64,000 bases of DNA from Lachnospiraceae bacterium (lineage in GTDB: Bacteria; Bacillota; Clostridia; Lachnospirales; Lachnospiraceae): the NCBI GenBank assembly GCA_017618075.1, contig JAFZUY010000023.1, forward strand, positions 124,001-188,000. The letters are read 5' to 3'. Positions within the stretch are counted from its first letter, which is position 1, and every line of letters starts with the position of its first letter. Below are positions 22,050 to 30,855 of the stretch, piece after piece. The notes under the pieces are model-generated. The model did no database searches. It saw only the letters and a list, made by a program, of their open reading frames with translations, and was not told the origin of the DNA. The translations under genes and the position numbers were made by a program.

Positions 22050-22367
22050 CTAATTTTGCATAATCTTTATAAAAGACAATTCTTTTTCTTTTCCTTCGTC
22101 CACAATGTTTATCAGTCTGAAAGCCGGACCTGTTGGATGAGTTCTGCCAAGTTCCCAGGCTTCCACGGTTTTTTGTGAAACACCCAGATAAGAAGCAAAT
22201 GCCGCCTGTGTCATTCCGGCTTTGTTTCGTATTGCTTTAATTTCGGTGTTAGTATATTTTTTTACGGGTTCAAAAATAAAAGTGGTTCTTTTACCGGTTT
22301 TTTTACCCTTTTCTATCTCAATAGCTTCTTCCAAGCCGGTTTTTAAATCGTCAAATAATATACTCAC
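22050..22367 (-). CDS. XRE-family antitoxin of a RelE/HigB-type pair
   Basis: About 105 residues with a C-terminal helix-turn-helix (IRNKAGMTQAAFASYLGVSQ, TVEAWELGRTHPTGPA), as in HigA2/MqsA-like antitoxins. I chose the GTG at 22367 rather than the one at 22376: the GGAGGTGAT ribosome site overlaps the toxin's stop codon and is correctly spaced only for the former. Encoded after its toxin; expected to bind the palindrome at 22745-22761. Confidence 0.86.
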   Translation of the reverse strand: MSILFDDLKTGLEEAIEIEKGKKTGKRTTFIFEPVKKYTNTEIKAIRNKAGMTQAAFASYLGVSQKTVEAWELGRTHPTGPAFRLINIVDEGKEKELSFIKIMQN

Positions 22368-22372
22368 AGAAA

Positions 22373-22720
22373 TCACCTCCGATTACGTTGTGCTTCCTCT
22401 TTAAGAGATTTAACCAATTTTTTCAAAACTCTTTTTTCTTCGGAAGAAAGATTGCTTTGCTCATCTTTGGTAAAAGCGGTTATCAGATAAGTGACCTCGT
22501 ATTCGGCAAAATCTGTATAACAGACTCTTACACTTCCACTTTTACCTCTGTGCTCCAAAGGGAATCGTACTTTCCTTATTCCTCCTGTTCCTGACATTAC
22601 CGGTCCGGACTCAGGATCTTTTAAAAGAATTATTTGTAATGCTAAAAGGTCATCGTCATTCAAGCCTATTTCTTTCCAGCGTTTTGAAAATAAAGGTACT
22701 TCGATAAAAGTTCTTATCAT
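22373..22720 (-). CDS. RelE/HigB-type toxin
   Basis: 115 residues with the RelE-superfamily core GTGGIRKVRFPLEHRGKSGS, VRVCYTDF and LITAFTKDEQSNLS, and a basic C-terminal tail. Known relatives cleave mRNA on the ribosome. A ribosome site AAAGGA precedes the ATG. Order toxin-antitoxin. Confidence 0.86.
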   Translation of the reverse strand: MIRTFIEVPLFSKRWKEIGLNDDDLLALQIILLKDPESGPVMSGTGGIRKVRFPLEHRGKSGSVRVCYTDFAEYEVTYLITAFTKDEQSNLSSEEKRVLKKLVKSLKEEAQRNRR

Positions 22721-23335: not shown

Positions 23336-24910
23336 ATGAAAAGAAAACAAAAGATTTATCGTATTATGCTTGTTTTGGCAACAAGTGTTTTCATCGTCGG
23401 ATGTGGTGGAAGTGAAAGTAAAATTGCCAAATTGGAAAACGAGGCAGAGATTCAATATAATGCAGGAAATCTGGATGAGGCATTAAATAATATCAATCAG
23501 GCGGAAGAATTGGGGCAATTATCAGAAAAAGGAACAGAAATAAAAGGTTCCATATTCGTTGAAAAAGCAAAGAAAAATCTTAATTCCGGTGATTATGAGG
23601 GAGTAATTGTAAATATAGAAAACGCTGAAAATATTTTAGGAGAAACTACGGAGGAAGAACAAGAATTAATTTATCAGGCTTATGGCGGTTTAATAGAAGA
23701 CATCTATTCAAAAAACAAAGATTCTTCAGATATAGATCCGGAAGAGATAAAGAAGGGTGTGGAGTATTTAAGAAATCAAATTAAAATCCATCCTGAAAAT
23801 ATAGACCGTACAAAATATGTGTTTTTTAAAAAGAATTATGGATTATATTTGGAAGATAATAATTTATATGCAGAATTGGTTGATTCGTTAAAAGAGGATG
23901 TACAGAATATATGGGACTTAGATTTAAGTGAAATAGATCTTCCAGATTATACAAAATATGATTCTATTGAAAAATATGAGGAAGCCTTTTCGGAATTTGA
24001 AGCAAAAAGAAATAATGGCAAAACGGATAGCATTAAAGGCATAATAAAAAATATAATATGGAGATATGAGGCTATTCAGTATGCATTTGAATCATCAAAA
24101 TATGGAATTAAGAATGCTTCTGTTGGTGATCATGTTCGGTTTTCAGAAGAAGACATAATCAATTTAAATAATAACCCATACATCGATGAGGAATTGTCTT
24201 TTATTGATTATTATATGAAAAACAACTTTTGGGTTCCCTCAACGTATGAAACAAATTTATATGATTTCTCTTATTTAGAACGGTTTTACGATCTTATTAT
24301 CTTAAATCCAAATGCAAAAAAAGATAATTCAGAATATATAAATTGCTGGGACACGTGGACAGTTCTTGAGAAAGATGATGAAAAAGCACTTTTATTATAT
24401 GATATACCTGTTGATGAAGAATGGTTTTATGGGTTTGATGTATATACAGAGTTTGAGAAAGGGAATAAAAAAGATTGGGAGGGTCTTTCTAATGGAGGGT
24501 TCATGAATTATCCTAATATTCCGGTAAGGGTTTTAACTTATGAGGAGTACGAAAAATACTCTGATATATTAGATTATTCTGTTTTTGAATATAATAATTA
24601 TCGTAAATCTTGGTTTTTGCCGGAAAATACTTCGTATGAATCAGATATATTTGAATATGATGGAGAAGTGGCAATAACTCACCCCGACAATCCTAAAGTA
24701 ATTATTGGATATAAAAATGCTAAATTTCAAAGAGAAATATTAAAAGCAAAAATTCTTGATGTTAAAACAGGATTGGTTCAAGATTTTGACTCGGAAAATC
24801 TTGTAAAGAAAACAGATGACCTGGGATTTTCAAATAGTTGGCAGGCTTATGTTGGAAATAATATTAGTGTAAATTATTGTTACAGAGTAGTAGCATGGTT
24901 TTATTATTAA
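23336..24910 (+). CDS. AT-rich secreted lipoprotein with TPR-like N-terminus
   Basis: 524 residues. Signal peptide with lipobox FIVGC (Cys23). Residues about 28-120 form TPR-like helices (AEIQYNAGNLDEALNNINQA, EKAKKNLNSGDYEGVIVNIE). The rest is acidic, rich in Asn, Tyr and Glu, with no recognised domain. Codon use is visibly more AT-rich than the neighbouring genes (TTA, AAT, ATA frequent), as is its flanking DNA, which suggests acquisition. Controlled by the divergent XRE repressor. Function unknown. Confidence 0.75.
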   Translation: MKRKQKIYRIMLVLATSVFIVGCGGSESKIAKLENEAEIQYNAGNLDEALNNINQAEELGQLSEKGTEIKGSIFVEKAKKNLNSGDYEGVIVNIENAENILGETTEEEQELIYQAYGGLIEDIYSKNKDSSDIDPEEIKKGVEYLRNQIKIHPENIDRTKYVFFKKNYGLYLEDNNLYAELVDSLKEDVQNIWDLDLSEIDLPDYTKYDSIEKYEEAFSEFEAKRNNGKTDSIKGIIKNIIWRYEAIQYAFESSKYGIKNASVGDHVRFSEEDIINLNNNPYIDEELSFIDYYMKNNFWVPSTYETNLYDFSYLERFYDLIILNPNAKKDNSEYINCWDTWTVLEKDDEKALLLYDIPVDEEWFYGFDVYTEFEKGNKKDWEGLSNGGFMNYPNIPVRVLTYEEYEKYSDILDYSVFEYNNYRKSWFLPENTSYESDIFEYDGEVAITHPDNPKVIIGYKNAKFQREILKAKILDVKTGLVQDFDSENLVKKTDDLGFSNSWQAYVGNNISVNYCYRVVAWFYY

Positions 24911-26178: not shown

Positions 26179-27468
26179 TTATTTATTTTTAAAATATTTT
26201 AGTCTCACGTTGGTTCTGTAAAAATCCTTGGCCGTACATCCTGCTCTTCCGCCACCGGCACAGGCACAGGCGCACGCACAGGCGCAGGCACATGCACACG
26301 AGGAAGAATGACTGTGATTTCGTCCGCCGCCTCTGGAGCCTGAATTGGACATATAATATGACGAGAACGATGTACGGTGCGGTACGGTTTCGCTTGTTAC
26401 ATATATATAGGTGTTGGGCGAAGAAGAAAGAGGATATGCTCCCGCTCTTTTTCGTTTTATAATCTCGTCTTTATAATCTTTATATTTTTTCGGAATACGC
26501 GTTTCTACTATTTTGGTTTTCTTTTTAATTAAATTAGTAGAGCAGTACTGACAGGTTTTCTTGCCTTCAGCGCATAAAGCACCACAGTTTGGACATTTTT
26601 CAAAGTATTCGATGATGGTGCGGGTGATTTTCTTTCTGGTTCCGCTAAAGCCCGAACTTTTTCTCCAGCCGATATAGTTTTTAAGATAATCGATACCTAT
26701 CAGGATTATGAAGACAGAGGCTATAGCACCAAAAACAAATAAGGGACCTATCCATTCGCGATATTTACTCTGCTTAATCTCTTTGCTTGTATCAAATCCG
26801 AAAGCATCATTGGGATAGACGACATCGATAGTGACCTTATCTTTCTTTTTAAGAGGAGCTCTCCAGATAAAGTAACCTAAATATGTATCGTTATCATATC
26901 CCGAAGTGGCACGCAAAACTTTTTTACTGTTCCAGTAAATACTCAGCATGTCGACATCGATTTCATCAAACCAGCCCGGAGTAAAGCGGTATACCGTTTC
27001 CCCTTCGGTCTCCATGTTCATCTGATACATATAATCCTGGGTAAAAGAAAAACTTATATCGACAGTTTCCCCGGCCTTGTATTCTCTGTCCAGATCGATA
27101 CGTATATAGGAACCGCCGACACCTGAGTATGCTATTTTTTTAATGCATTTGGATTCGGCTTTAATATTACTGCAGTGAGAGTTGGGAATTCCGATCTTTA
27201 CCCATGTAAGAGGCCCGTCGGTTGTGGAATCAAGCACCTTCCATACGATATGATAATGCATATTCAGAGTGGCATCATCGTTGACATTCACCCAGATGGT
27301 ATAAGAAAGAATTTCGTCTAAGTCTTTGGCATGAATATGCATCGGCAAAAAAAACGCTATTGCCAGCATTAAGATGAGTGAAAGAACCGTTTTTGAAATA
27401 AAAGATGTGATAGTAAAGTGTTTTTCAGTCATTTGCCATTCCCAAAATATTGTCCCCATGATTTTCAT
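26179..27468 (-). CDS. Secreted membrane protein with zinc ribbon and (Cys-Ala)7 tail
   Basis: 429 residues: signal peptide (about 25-47), extracellular beta-rich domain (48-235) resembling DUF2207-type proteins, one membrane helix (about 243-265), zinc ribbon (CPNCGA and CQYC, about 292-309), then at the C-terminus seven Cys-Ala repeats (391-404), GGGRAGCTAKDFY and a basic end. The repeat uses mixed Cys (TGT/TGC) and Ala codons, so it is held by protein-level selection. ATG 27468 has an AGAGGTGAT ribosome site; ATG 27432 (MTEKHF) aligns better with the paralogue. Divergent from a radical SAM gene; probably its substrate (inference). Confidence 0.82.
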   Translation of the reverse strand: MKIMGTIFWEWQMTEKHFTITSFISKTVLSLILMLAIAFFLPMHIHAKDLDEILSYTIWVNVNDDATLNMHYHIVWKVLDSTTDGPLTWVKIGIPNSHCSNIKAESKCIKKIAYSGVGGSYIRIDLDREYKAGETVDISFSFTQDYMYQMNMETEGETVYRFTPGWFDEIDVDMLSIYWNSKKVLRATSGYDNDTYLGYFIWRAPLKKKDKVTIDVVYPNDAFGFDTSKEIKQSKYREWIGPLFVFGAIASVFIILIGIDYLKNYIGWRKSSGFSGTRKKITRTIIEYFEKCPNCGALCAEGKKTCQYCSTNLIKKKTKIVETRIPKKYKDYKDEIIKRKRAGAYPLSSSPNTYIYVTSETVPHRTSFSSYYMSNSGSRGGGRNHSHSSSCACACACACACACAGGGRAGCTAKDFYRTNVRLKYFKNK

Positions 27469-27585
27469 AAAAAAATCACCTCTTCAATATTATCATAAAA
27501 ATCACAAATAGGGTGCTTTTTGATATTAAAATATGGTAAAATCATTTTGTTTGGAACTGTTAATAAAGTATTTTAAGGGGACAGC

Positions 27586-29010
27586 ATGAAAAGTAAAATA
27601 AGAGAACTTGAATATGCGCGCAATCATTTTAATGAAGTACATCATACAACGCTAAATCCCGAAGGACCGGGCGTTGTTCGTATTCACTTGATTCCGCCGG
27701 CAATAGAGGATGATTATATCGGCCCGAGTATTGCCATTATAAACGGACAGGACATCATTCCCGTTAACACAGCATGGAGCATTCTTTTAACAGAGTTTAT
27801 CGAAGAAACCAATCAGTATGACGGCCGTGAAATAAACGAGGAAGATTTCAAAACAATCATTGAGAATACCTGCAAGAAAACAGGCAAAGTATATCCGATG
27901 ATTCCGAAGTCCGTATTCAAAAAAGACCTTTACAGAATGATGAATACCTTCAAGCAGGTGGCTTACCGCGAACCTGTTGATGAAGAAATCGGATATATGA
28001 GCATAGGCGATTACGCTCCTTTTATGAAGGCTCCTCACCGTATGGATCTTATGGTTTCCGCCATGGAAAAAGACGGTAAATGGAACTGCAATCAGCGCTG
28101 CATTCACTGCTATGCGGCAGGCCAGAAAAATGCGAACGAAAAAGAACTTTCTACAGATGACTGGAAAAAGATAATCAATAAATGTCGTGAAATCGGTATT
28201 CCCCAGCTGACCTTCACGGGTGGCGAACCTACCATGAGAGACGATCTTTTAGAACTCATTGACAGTGCAAGATGGTTTGTTACAAGACTTAATACCAACG
28301 GAGTTCTTTTAACCGAGGAATACTGCAACAAACTAAAAGAAGTATCTCTCGACAGCATGCAGATAACCTTTTATTCGTCCGACGAAAAGATTCACAACGA
28401 ACTCGTCGGTGCAGAAAACTATGAAAAAACCGTTGCGGGAATTAAGAATGCCCTTAAAGCAGGCATCAGTGTAAGCATCAATACTCCGCTTTGCACCACA
28501 AACCGCAATTACAAAAAGACTCTTGAATTCTTACATGGTCTCGGAGTTTTGTATGTAACATGTTCGGGTCTTATAACGACCGGAAATGCCGAAAAAGAAC
28601 GATCAGAAAAGCTTCAGCTAGAAACAGACGAGATAAAAGACATATTAAAGCAGGCAGTTGAATACTGTGCAGAAAACGGAATGGAAATAAGCTTCACATC
28701 ACCCGGCTGGGTTGAAAATTCCTTCTGCGACGAGATTGGTATCAATCCTCCCACCTGTGGCGCATGCCTTTCAAATATGGCAGTCACACCTTCCGGAAAA
28801 GCAGTTCCGTGTCAGAGCTGGCTCTCCGATGATGCTCTGGGCGATTTCTTAAAAGATGAGTGGGAGCGAATCTGGGAAAGTGAAAAGTGCACGGAAAGAA
28901 GAGATTACAGCGCATTAATGGAAGGAAAATGTCCTCTTAGAAAGGGCTGCGGTAACTGTTCGGAAAAAGGCAGTATAGATAAGGATAAGGAGGAGAGTGC
29001 AAATGAATAA
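27586..29010 (+). CDS. Radical SAM/SPASM peptide-modifying enzyme
   Basis: 474 residues. The N-terminal 120 residues include a PqqD-like recognition region (VNTAWSILLTEFIEE, EEDFKTIIENTCKK). The radical SAM core starts with CNQRCIHC (Cys168, 172, 175 bind the 4Fe-4S cluster), then TFTGGEPTMRD. The C-terminal SPASM domain has PTCGAC (Cys391, 394), VPCQSW and CPLRKGCGNC for auxiliary clusters. This layout is that of RiPP maturases that form thioether or other cross-links. It lies between two proteins with Cys-Ala tails and overlaps the second by 8 bases, so these tails are the obvious substrates. AAGGGGA ribosome site. Confidence 0.93.
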   Translation: MKSKIRELEYARNHFNEVHHTTLNPEGPGVVRIHLIPPAIEDDYIGPSIAIINGQDIIPVNTAWSILLTEFIEETNQYDGREINEEDFKTIIENTCKKTGKVYPMIPKSVFKKDLYRMMNTFKQVAYREPVDEEIGYMSIGDYAPFMKAPHRMDLMVSAMEKDGKWNCNQRCIHCYAAGQKNANEKELSTDDWKKIINKCREIGIPQLTFTGGEPTMRDDLLELIDSARWFVTRLNTNGVLLTEEYCNKLKEVSLDSMQITFYSSDEKIHNELVGAENYEKTVAGIKNALKAGISVSINTPLCTTNRNYKKTLEFLHGLGVLYVTCSGLITTGNAEKERSEKLQLETDEIKDILKQAVEYCAENGMEISFTSPGWVENSFCDEIGINPPTCGACLSNMAVTPSGKAVPCQSWLSDDALGDFLKDEWERIWESEKCTERRDYSALMEGKCPLRKGCGNCSEKGSIDKDKEESANE

Positions 29011-30265
29011 GAAAAAATCTCTCTTATCCTCAGTATTTACAAAAATTGTTTTTGCGCTTCTTTTAGTTCTGACGATAGGTTTGTTTTTGCCCATCCACTC
29101 TGAAGCTAAGGATCTGGATGAAATCGTAAACTACCGGATCGTAGTTGATGTCAACGAAGATGCCACCCTTCACATGATTTATCATATTGACTGGAAGGTA
29201 CTTGATTCCACAAGTGAAGGACCTCTTTCCTGGGTGCTTATCGGAATTCCGAATAACAAATACAAGAGCTACAAGGCTCTTTCGAAATGCATTAAAACCA
29301 TGTCCTATTCGAGCAATGACGGAGCACTAAAGATTACTCTTGACAGAAATTATAAAGCCGGCGAAATAGTTCCCATTGAATTCGAACTCGTTCAGGACTA
29401 TATGTATCAGATGGATATGCTGACCGAGGGTGAAACGGTTTATGAATTTACGCCCGGCTGGTTTGATGATATCAAAGTCGACAACCTTGAGATTTTCTGG
29501 AACTCGGACAAAGCAATATCACATTCTCCCGCAAGCGACAATTATAACAATTATTTTGTGTGGAAAACCTCATTGGGAAAAGGGCAGAAATACAAAGTAA
29601 GCGTAACTTACCCAAATGATGCCTTTAAATTCGACACTTCCAAAAAGATAAAGAAGAACAATGCAAAATTTCAGAAATTTCTTTCGAACCTGTGTCCGAT
29701 ATGTATTGTAGTATTGTTTTTCCTTGGAACATTTGCACTGTATTATTTCTTCAGTTTCTTAGGATGGGTTACAAGCTCCGGCTTTAAAGGAACTTCTACC
29801 AAAGTCGTTCGTACCGTCGTCGAGTACATGACCAACTGTCCAAACTGCGGGGCTCCCCGTCAGGAAGGCAAAGAAGTCTGCTCATATTGCGGCACCAATA
29901 TGATCAAGTCAAAGACCAAGGTTGAAGAAGAAAAAGTACCTGAAAAGTTATCCAAATTCAAGGATGAAATCCTGGGTAACAAAGAAAACGGTACATATAA
30001 ACTTAAATCTTCGCCCAATACATACGTTCATGTATCGACCATCGTGGTTCCTCACAGAACTTCATTCTCTTCTTATATGAAGAGCCAGTCCTCGTCACGT
30101 GGAGGTGGAAGAAGCGGTGGCGGATGCGCACATTCTTCATGTGCCTGCGCCTGTGCGTGTGCATGTGCCTGCGCCGGCGGCGGAAGAGCCGGTTGTACGG
30201 CAAAGGATTTCTACAAAACGAACCTTAAGCTTAAATACTTTAAGAAGAATAAAAAAGAAAAATAA
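29003..30265 (+). CDS. Secreted membrane protein with zinc ribbon and (Cys-Ala)6 tail
   Basis: 420 residues, a paralogue of the protein at 26179-27468: signal peptide (IVFALLLVLTIGLFLPIHSE), extracellular domain (shared VNEDATLHM, WKVLDSTSEGPLSWV, DYMYQM, FTPGWFDDI), membrane helix (about 227-252), zinc ribbon (CPNCGAPRQEGKEVCSYC) and a tail with SRGGGRSGGGCAHSS, six Cys-Ala repeats (380-391), GGGRAGCTAKDFYKT and a Lys-rich end. ATG 29003 is chosen over a GTG at 28997 because AGGAGG is 9 bases upstream. Translationally coupled to the radical SAM gene. Confidence 0.85.
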   Translation: MNKKKSLLSSVFTKIVFALLLVLTIGLFLPIHSEAKDLDEIVNYRIVVDVNEDATLHMIYHIDWKVLDSTSEGPLSWVLIGIPNNKYKSYKALSKCIKTMSYSSNDGALKITLDRNYKAGEIVPIEFELVQDYMYQMDMLTEGETVYEFTPGWFDDIKVDNLEIFWNSDKAISHSPASDNYNNYFVWKTSLGKGQKYKVSVTYPNDAFKFDTSKKIKKNNAKFQKFLSNLCPICIVVLFFLGTFALYYFFSFLGWVTSSGFKGTSTKVVRTVVEYMTNCPNCGAPRQEGKEVCSYCGTNMIKSKTKVEEEKVPEKLSKFKDEILGNKENGTYKLKSSPNTYVHVSTIVVPHRTSFSSYMKSQSSSRGGGRSGGGCAHSSCACACACACACAGGGRAGCTAKDFYKTNLKLKYFKKNKKEK

Positions 30266-30387: not shown

Positions 30388-30855
30388 ATGTTTCATAAAG
30401 CCGTAGATTGTAGATTCAAAGAAAACTGTATAGTGGAAGTTACGTTCCAGGATGGAAAAGTAAAAGAATATTGCCTGAAAGATATGTTTGATCAGTATCC
30501 TATCATGAAAGCATTGCAGAACAGAGAATTGTTCAATTCCGGAAAACTGGTTGGAAATTATGGAATTATTTGGAATGATGATATTGATCTTGAAGTTGAA
30601 ACCATATATGAATGCGGAGTTACTGTCAGAACGGAAAAGGTTTCGTATCATATAGATCTTGGCAATTCATTAAAAAAAGCAAGAGCTGAATTAGGAATAT
30701 CTCAAAAAGAACTTTCAAATAAAACCGGAATTGACCAGTCGGATATATCCAAAATAGAATGCGGAGCCGGAAATCCCTCCCTGGACACGTTGGTCTGTTT
30801 GGCGGAAGCTCTGAATACAGACATTAAGATTACATTAGAAAAAAAATCCTCATAA
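30388..30855 (+). CDS. DUF2442 plus XRE helix-turn-helix protein
   Basis: 155 residues. Residues about 1-75 match DUF2442-type sequences (VEVTFQDGKVKEYCLKDMF, GNYGIIWNDDIDLEVETIYE); residues 90-152 are an XRE domain (LKKARAELGISQKELSNKTG, QSDISKIECGAGNPSLDTL). DUF2442/HTH proteins often behave as antitoxin-like regulators; no toxin (DUF4160-type) gene is next to it here. Probably represses its own promoter. Confidence 0.82.
   Translation: MFHKAVDCRFKENCIVEVTFQDGKVKEYCLKDMFDQYPIMKALQNRELFNSGKLVGNYGIIWNDDIDLEVETIYECGVTVRTEKVSYHIDLGNSLKKARAELGISQKELSNKTGIDQSDISKIECGAGNPSLDTLVCLAEALNTDIKITLEKKSS

Follow-up and report, generated by a model that had tools for sequence, protein, structure and literature searches.

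Gene organization of the locus

The DNA analyzed here (the window) is a stretch of 64,000 nucleotides from a Lachnospiraceae bacterium (GenBank assembly GCA_017618075.1, contig JAFZUY010000023.1, positions 124,001 to 188,000), and it carries a locus at which the gene for a radical S-adenosylmethionine (SAM) enzyme sits between the genes for two membrane proteins that have runs of alternating Cys and Ala near their C termini. The enzyme, a radical SAM/SPASM protein of 474 amino acids (27586..29010, plus strand), matches Radical_SAM (PF04055; E 9e-24) and SPASM (PF13186; 25.6 bits versus a cutoff of 21.5), both above the Pfam cutoffs. On the same strand lies the gene for tailed membrane protein copy 2 (about 29003..30265; ~420 amino acids from the ATG at 29003), of which the likely start codon (ATG, 29003-29005), preceded by AAGGAGG, overlaps the enzyme stop codon (29008-29010). 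The gene for copy 1 (26179..27468, minus strand; likely start codon 27430-27432) is divergent from the enzyme gene.

The two tailed proteins are paralogues with 55% identity. Copy 2 consists of a predicted outer, DUF2207-like domain (29105..29617), a single membrane span recognized by hydrophobicity (29699..29755), a zinc-ribbon-like CxxC...CxxC segment (29828..29902), six consecutive Cys-Ala units forming a predicted cytosolic tail (30140..30175) and, 3' of the repeat, a GGGRAGCTAKDFY motif (30176..30214). The minus-strand counterparts in copy 1 are the predicted outer, DUF2207-like domain (26809..27330), the single span, again from hydrophobicity (26695..26751), seven consecutive Cys-Ala units (26257..26298) and an identical GGGRAGCTAKDFY motif 3' of the repeat (26218..26256). 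Reading of the locus and Pfam searches thus confirmed an initial annotation of this DNA, which had described two paralogous Cys-Ala-tailed membrane proteins flanking a radical SAM/SPASM enzyme. That annotation had also given both proteins a zinc ribbon. CxxC...CxxC is present in both copies; the Zn_ribbon_3 score of copy 2 falls just under the Pfam cutoff (25.6 versus 27), and copy 1 has no Pfam match.

The enzyme and the tailed protein occur together

We searched 299 genomes of the family with the window enzyme. Some match at an E value of ≤1e-10 was present in 125 of them and an orthologue in 24 (428 to 1108 bits; next best, 93.6 bits), and in all 24 orthologue neighborhoods, each of which was read, a tailed partner is encoded directly downstream on the same strand. 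These 24 partners and the divergent copy 1 of the window make up the 25 main-clade partners referred to below. A search for 24-base stretches encoding four Cys-Ala units gave matches in 28 of the 299 genomes (reversed control, 0/299); the matches in G278, G048, G252 and G200, when read, proved not to be tails, so that no real tail was found by pattern search and reading of these four matches in the remaining 275 genomes. The outer domain of the partner was found in 25 of the 299 genomes, namely, the same 24 and G082, in which the homologue ends without a tail and which lacks an orthologous enzyme, its radical SAM match being a weak one (8e-11). The neighbors of the next-best radical SAM protein in the family set (G069) were read and lack a Cys-Ala tail.

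Within the genus (31 genomes), 20 genomes have the enzyme, 19 have the tail pattern and 19 have the partner domain, those 19 being the same genomes. The three are jointly present or absent in 30 of the 31, and in the odd one out (G728) the sequence ends ~400 bases past the enzyme. All 11 genus genomes without the enzyme also lacked the tail pattern and the partner domain at the thresholds used, and in 10 of the 31 the partner domain is matched twice. The initial annotation had proposed co-occurrence of tail and enzyme across genomes as a check, and by this computed pairing they are together in every readable case. Internal TGA or TAA stops in some orthologues were considered as selenocysteine codons, an idea that we dropped, since open frames cover the matches and the matches appear to overrun the stop (checked by coordinates in G285 only).

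The repeat is conserved as protein

All 25 main-clade partners share the exact core CACACACA-xx-GRAGC-xx-K-x-F. Its 24-base core is spelled in 25 different ways in the 25 partners, the Ala codons using all four third bases and the Cys codons both, and yet the residues are invariant, including the Cys residues, four in the core and one in the GC that follows. Thus, as proposed earlier from the window alone, the Cys-Ala alternation is selected at the protein level. When the 24 loci are compared pairwise, the 21-residue tail core averages 88% identity, above the enzyme (59%) and the outer domain (44%). The identities of enzyme and partner domain correlate (r = 0.82 over 276 pairs), a figure that is descriptive only because the sequences are related.

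The partners are predicted to place the tail in the cytosol

The candidate substrate proteins are about 300 to 500 amino acids long. All 25 main-clade partners have an N-terminal hydrophobic segment with more positive charge before it and one later span within residues 210 to 306, and in 23 of the 25 the C-terminal side of that span is more positive than the N-terminal side. Twelve distant partners (see below) show the same two segments; three long frames among them have an additional segment past the tail, and two f26 partners show another weak hydrophobic peak. Two segments, that is, a signal segment and one span, predict a cytosolic C terminus, which would bring the tail within reach of the enzyme. 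A Gly/Ser-rich stretch precedes the repeat in most partners, and in the short ones (L055 to L060), which have no zinc ribbon, little sequence except the tail lies past the span.

The architecture of signal segment, outer domain, span and inner Gly/Ser-rich C terminus is, as a prediction, that of DUF2207 proteins such as SMU.243, which in the portions of PMC10457818 available have a large outer N-terminal domain and a Gly/Ser-rich C-terminal part taken as intracellular. Since PF09972 (DUF2207) matched just 6 of the 25 partners at an E value of ≤1 (best, 1.7e-4), and neither window copy, we call the partners DUF2207-like only.

No third gene accompanies the pair in the main clade

We compared 104 neighborhoods, many of them on short contigs, by a script filter that detected the enzyme open reading frame (ORF) at 97 loci and the partner at 89, and we read the flanks. 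No third gene is consistently adjacent to the pair in these main-clade neighborhoods, and no recurrent protease-like or exporter-like gene was seen beside it in the flanks as read (genes were not annotated singly). Antisense ORFs aside, the commonest other clusters, labeled by eye, were a mixed LacI-like cluster (32/104), an ABC-like cluster (14) and a MATE-like cluster (8). We considered the LacI-like cluster as a third gene and rejected it, since its ORFs vary widely in length and do not sit consistently beside the pair.

Distant relatives keep a shorter common core

A set of 398 genomes of the phylum, more diverse than the family set, contains the enzyme at an E value of ≤1e-60 in 14 genomes, and we examined the 13 neighborhoods other than that of the window. 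A candidate partner adjoins the enzyme in all 13. The main-clade profile matches the domain of 12 of these partners, ten at 72 to 97 bits and two weakly (20.1 and 12.6 bits), with none in L242, and profile comparison of the outer part of an f26 partner with the main-clade domain gave 76% (control segment, 0.9%). Eleven of the 13 loci have a readable (CA)4 tail; the tail is visible up to the contig end in L241 and masked in L238. Eight of the distant enzymes are 28 to 35% identical to the window enzyme. One further genome (G330) entered through the tail pattern, and its adjacent enzyme scores 199 bits.

The Cys-Ala pattern occurs in 17 of the 398 genomes (12 enzyme genomes, G330 and four in which it is not a tail), and the reversed control matches 5 of the 398, so chance matches do occur in this set. 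The four nontail genomes are G423, G441, G465 and G522, where one place each was read; further pattern places in G441, G497 and G700 were read incompletely.

The f67 and f129 tails follow GCxCVSCACACVSCACACACAGG-GAGC, and those of f26 and f31 place ...SCACACACACA-SS/GG-GGCT at the extreme end. As the distant tails differ in the flanking motif, the KDFY part is specific to the main clade, and the core common to all tails is (CA)4, a few Gly or Ser residues and then GC.

Around the distant loci, genes for a TPM-domain protein and a LemA protein come after the tailed gene in f67 (Pfam, L232). The f67 and f129 loci L232:7166-8469, L234:9068-10365 and L235:9165-10619 all have TPM and LemA genes after the tailed gene, beyond L232 by likeness, suggesting that the tailed protein, TPM and LemA of f67 and f129 form one membrane system. 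A single frame at L233:4364-6439, L236:4443-6284 and L239:873-2687 runs from the outer domain through an internal Cys-Ala tail into a TPM-like segment; it extends 260 to 298 residues beyond the tail, and by eye this segment resembles the L232 TPM protein. In f26 (L242:5194-6961, L243:7335-9123 and L244:4413-6126), the enzyme gene precedes two genes that resemble each other and look as if they encode secreted proteins; the L244 pair has no Pfam match.

The enzyme has a reduced SPASM domain and scores below the cutoffs of the NCBIfam models listed

PF04055 was found in all 24 family-set orthologues and PF13186 in all 24 at an E value of ≤1. The cluster motif of the window enzyme is CNQRCIHCY, of which the CxxxCxxC cysteines (C168, C172 and C175) are kept in 24/24, as are Cys 247, 303, 391, 409 and 449. 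Its SPASM domain is reduced, running C391 x12 G404 x4 C409 ... C449. CX12GX4C is retained throughout the alignment, and CX2CX5CX3C is present in all eight distant members aligned and lost, apart from its last Cys, in the four main-clade enzymes aligned. The SPASM cysteines of the initial annotation therefore stand in part: the domain match lies above its cutoff, but in the main clade the domain has shrunk to CX12GX4C and the last Cys.

The N-terminal domain, around IINGQDIIPVN, resembles by eye a recognition element (RRE) of ribosomally synthesized and posttranslationally modified peptides (RiPPs). A PqqD-like N terminus had been named at the outset. No Pfam match to PF05402 (PqqD) was obtained for the window enzyme or three distant enzymes, and PF05402 was not among the matches listed for the 24 family-set enzymes (25 of 41 families). 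Taken across the wider family, the N-terminal domain aligned with PqqD by hhalign at 61.7% (other segments, 0.1 to 2.8%), so that the likeness, and with it an RRE-like assignment of this domain, is suggestive only, and only at that breadth.

The closest solved relative by profile is SkfB (6efn, E 1.3e-16), an enzyme that forms Cys-to-Calpha thioethers. Among the matches listed, no NCBIfam model reached its cutoff (window enzyme best, 114.7 versus 500), and three distant enzymes were likewise under every NCBIfam cutoff among the best 25 matches of each. As an observation apart, the enzyme of G062 (L060:7518-9323) holds in its N-terminal domain an insertion of near-identical VSGGRKEAREG-type repeats.

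Proposed function of the Cys-Ala tail

A cytosolic enzyme, a predicted cytosolic tail conserved above the rest of the protein, overlapping genes and the lack of a recurrent third gene make the tail a likely substrate, and from these features we infer, with considerable confidence, that the Cys-Ala tail is what the enzyme acts on. That Cys and Ala alternate strictly suggests a role for both in the reaction. We give about an even chance to the fuller proposal that the locus pairs a dedicated modifying enzyme with a substrate whose tail is not cleaved and that the bonds made are, most likely, Cys-to-Ala thioethers. The substrate, a DUF2207-like protein of the membrane, would have its outer domain on one side and, in the cytosol, a tail in which at least four Cys-Ala units precede Gly/Ser and GC. 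The enzyme, perhaps gripping it through the N-terminal RRE-like domain, would abstract hydrogen atoms from tail Ala residues, to which neighboring Cys sulfurs would most likely be joined in thioethers of the S-Calpha type or, with lower probability, the S-Cbeta type. The product would be a ladder of small rings on a tail that remains part of the membrane protein, and the finished tail could be a rigid, oxidation-proof or metal- or redox-active element at the inner face of the membrane.

There is precedent for thioethers in a protein subunit: the available parts of PMC7876137 describe QhpD, by which QhpC acquires three thioethers while in the cytoplasm, with a loss of about 6 Da. QhpD and QhpC resemble the present pair as an operon-linked radical SAM enzyme and a functional protein subunit modified at Cys, and they differ in that, in the same parts of that source, the QhpC leader is cut by QhpE, an ABC transporter serves export and the acceptors are Asp and Glu; here the partner sits in the membrane and bears a Cys-Ala repeat, and no such genes recur. 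SkfB, which acts on SkfA, is described in passages of PMC8326336 as abstracting a Calpha hydrogen and tolerating Ala as an acceptor, and as having a twitch-type C terminus, which the reduced SPASM domain of the main clade may resemble. The known substrates of sactipeptide synthases are short peptides, unlike the present partners, and among the matches listed the NCBIfam cutoffs for SkfB, AlbA and StsB are far off. The ACGX system (TIGR04340, radical SAM/SPASM), likened here by its name, which suggests an Ala-Cys-Gly-x repeat, shares a SPASM enzyme and is among the weak matches, but its best score among the matches listed is 64.6 bits (L244) against a cutoff of 400.

Several observations weigh against a thioether ladder on a cytosolic tail. 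Most sactipeptides have a hairpin layout, according to the portions of PMC8326336 available, unlike Ala alternating with each Cys. The window enzyme scores higher with the NirJ2, MoaA, AhbD and PqqE models of NCBIfam than with sactisynthase models, so that SkfB as nearest solved chain leaves the chemistry unfixed. For the RRE-like domain, the main clade alone gave 2.4% against PqqD in hhalign, below control segments (4.6 to 7.6%), and a single-sequence search with the PqqD profile gave no significant match (best E, 0.053). As to topology, the charge rule fails at the second span in window copy 2 (+3/+1) and in L060. The Cys-Ala tail is itself hydrophobic, with a weak third peak (1.5 to 1.7) in 6 of the 25 main-clade partners and a peak of about 2.0 to 2.1 in 8 of 12 distant partners, and for this reason it might lie in the membrane.

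The probabilities that we attach to the rival explanations are not mutually exclusive. The foremost of these is that the tail is modified by another reaction, such as epimerization of Ala or Cys, oxidation of Cys to formylglycine or thioaldehyde or formation of a carbon-carbon bond. Formylglycine formation is another radical SAM peptide-modifying reaction, and the best NCBIfam matches among those listed are not thioether synthases. Radical SAM peptide modifiers also epimerize residues and form carbon-carbon bonds, as parts of PMC8326336 report. A strict Cys:Ala alternation is, however, most simply read as a reaction needing both residues, and the four core Cys residues and the GC Cys are invariant in the 25 partners; we regard a different reaction as a minority possibility, to be kept in mind. 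A SPASM enzyme next to a Cys-rich segment is the standard RiPP arrangement, and the tail could accordingly be a RiPP precursor that is modified and then cleaved to liberate a small peptide, the more so as it lies near the C terminus and in f26 ends one residue past the last Cys. Against release stand the lack of a recurrent protease-like or exporter-like gene in the 104 neighborhoods and the frames in L233, L236 and L239 that run on past the tail, and these same two observations favor a tail that stays on; release is therefore unlikely in our estimation. The initial annotation had placed the modification in cis on a large membrane protein, and this fits a membrane protein of such a size and the absence of a recurrent third gene.

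It is less likely still that the enzyme binds a tail that serves in metal or cluster binding, membrane embedding or docking, while the modified site lies elsewhere or in another protein. Dense thiols do bind metals, a docking tag would be conserved too and the tail scores hydrophobic in several partners, but the short partners without a zinc ribbon offer little past the span besides the tail, and in the main clade no recurrent third gene presents itself as an alternative substrate. The cross-linked surface cap that had first been proposed takes its appeal from the signal-type segments and the outer domain; the signal segment and single span predict an inner C terminus, the orientation in which DUF2207 proteins are described in the consulted parts of PMC10457818, and we consider a cap at the cell surface highly improbable.

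Returning to an uncleaved, thioether-bridged tail, we raise as a tentative extension, one that we think may well be wrong, that a permanent poly-thioether ladder on the inner (Cys-Ala)n tail constitutes a novel center, derived from the protein itself, that has a redox, metal or mechanical role and is coupled to an extracytoplasmic domain and, as part of the same doubtful proposal, that it acts with TPM and LemA proteins in some lineages. If this were true, the product of a radical SAM enzyme would persist as a component of a membrane machine and not be a released peptide or a subunit of an exported enzyme. A DUF2207-like group of unknown function is now tied to a dedicated radical enzyme, with a concrete candidate site, and the simplicity of an alternating Cys-Ala substrate could expose regular, repeatable chemistry of interest to enzymologists and peptide engineers. 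The enzyme-tail pair was not found in the open-license literature searched (radical SAM/RiPP and Cys-Ala repeat), nor were radical SAM and DUF2207 found together there.

Taxonomic spread and neighboring genes

In a GTDB scan, at least 508 of at least 586 matched stretches encode a relative, and we analyzed the best 80 of at least 508. The core is present in a complete partner in 72 of the 80 and in a split frame in one (L174); the partner is cut by the contig end in five (in L137, after the repeat), and L127 and L183 reach the contig end without a recognizable partner. Some of these 80 are contigs of genomes in the sets above (L187 with G229 and L203 with G023), and the sets are not independent. 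By record title, they are mainly metagenome-assembled genomes (MAGs) of rumen and gut Lachnospiraceae, plus other Clostridia and one Spirochaetes (L151). Six records are titled Eggerthellaceae or Coriobacteriaceae (L174, L177, L182, L184, L194 and L201), and all of their tails carry CACACGCACACACA, a variant that hints at an ancient transfer or at a distinct lineage; MAG titles are possibly wrong through misbinning.

Elsewhere in the window, a 524-amino-acid ORF with a lipoprotein-like start (23336-24910) has no Pfam match at an E value of ≤0.001, and a RelE-like gene paired with a helix-turn-helix gene (22050-22720, minus strand) is a probable toxin-antitoxin module. Directly downstream of tailed copy 2 lies a gene for a protein with DUF2442 and HTH_3 (30388-30855), and a similar 155-amino-acid gene occupies this place in L124 and L128.

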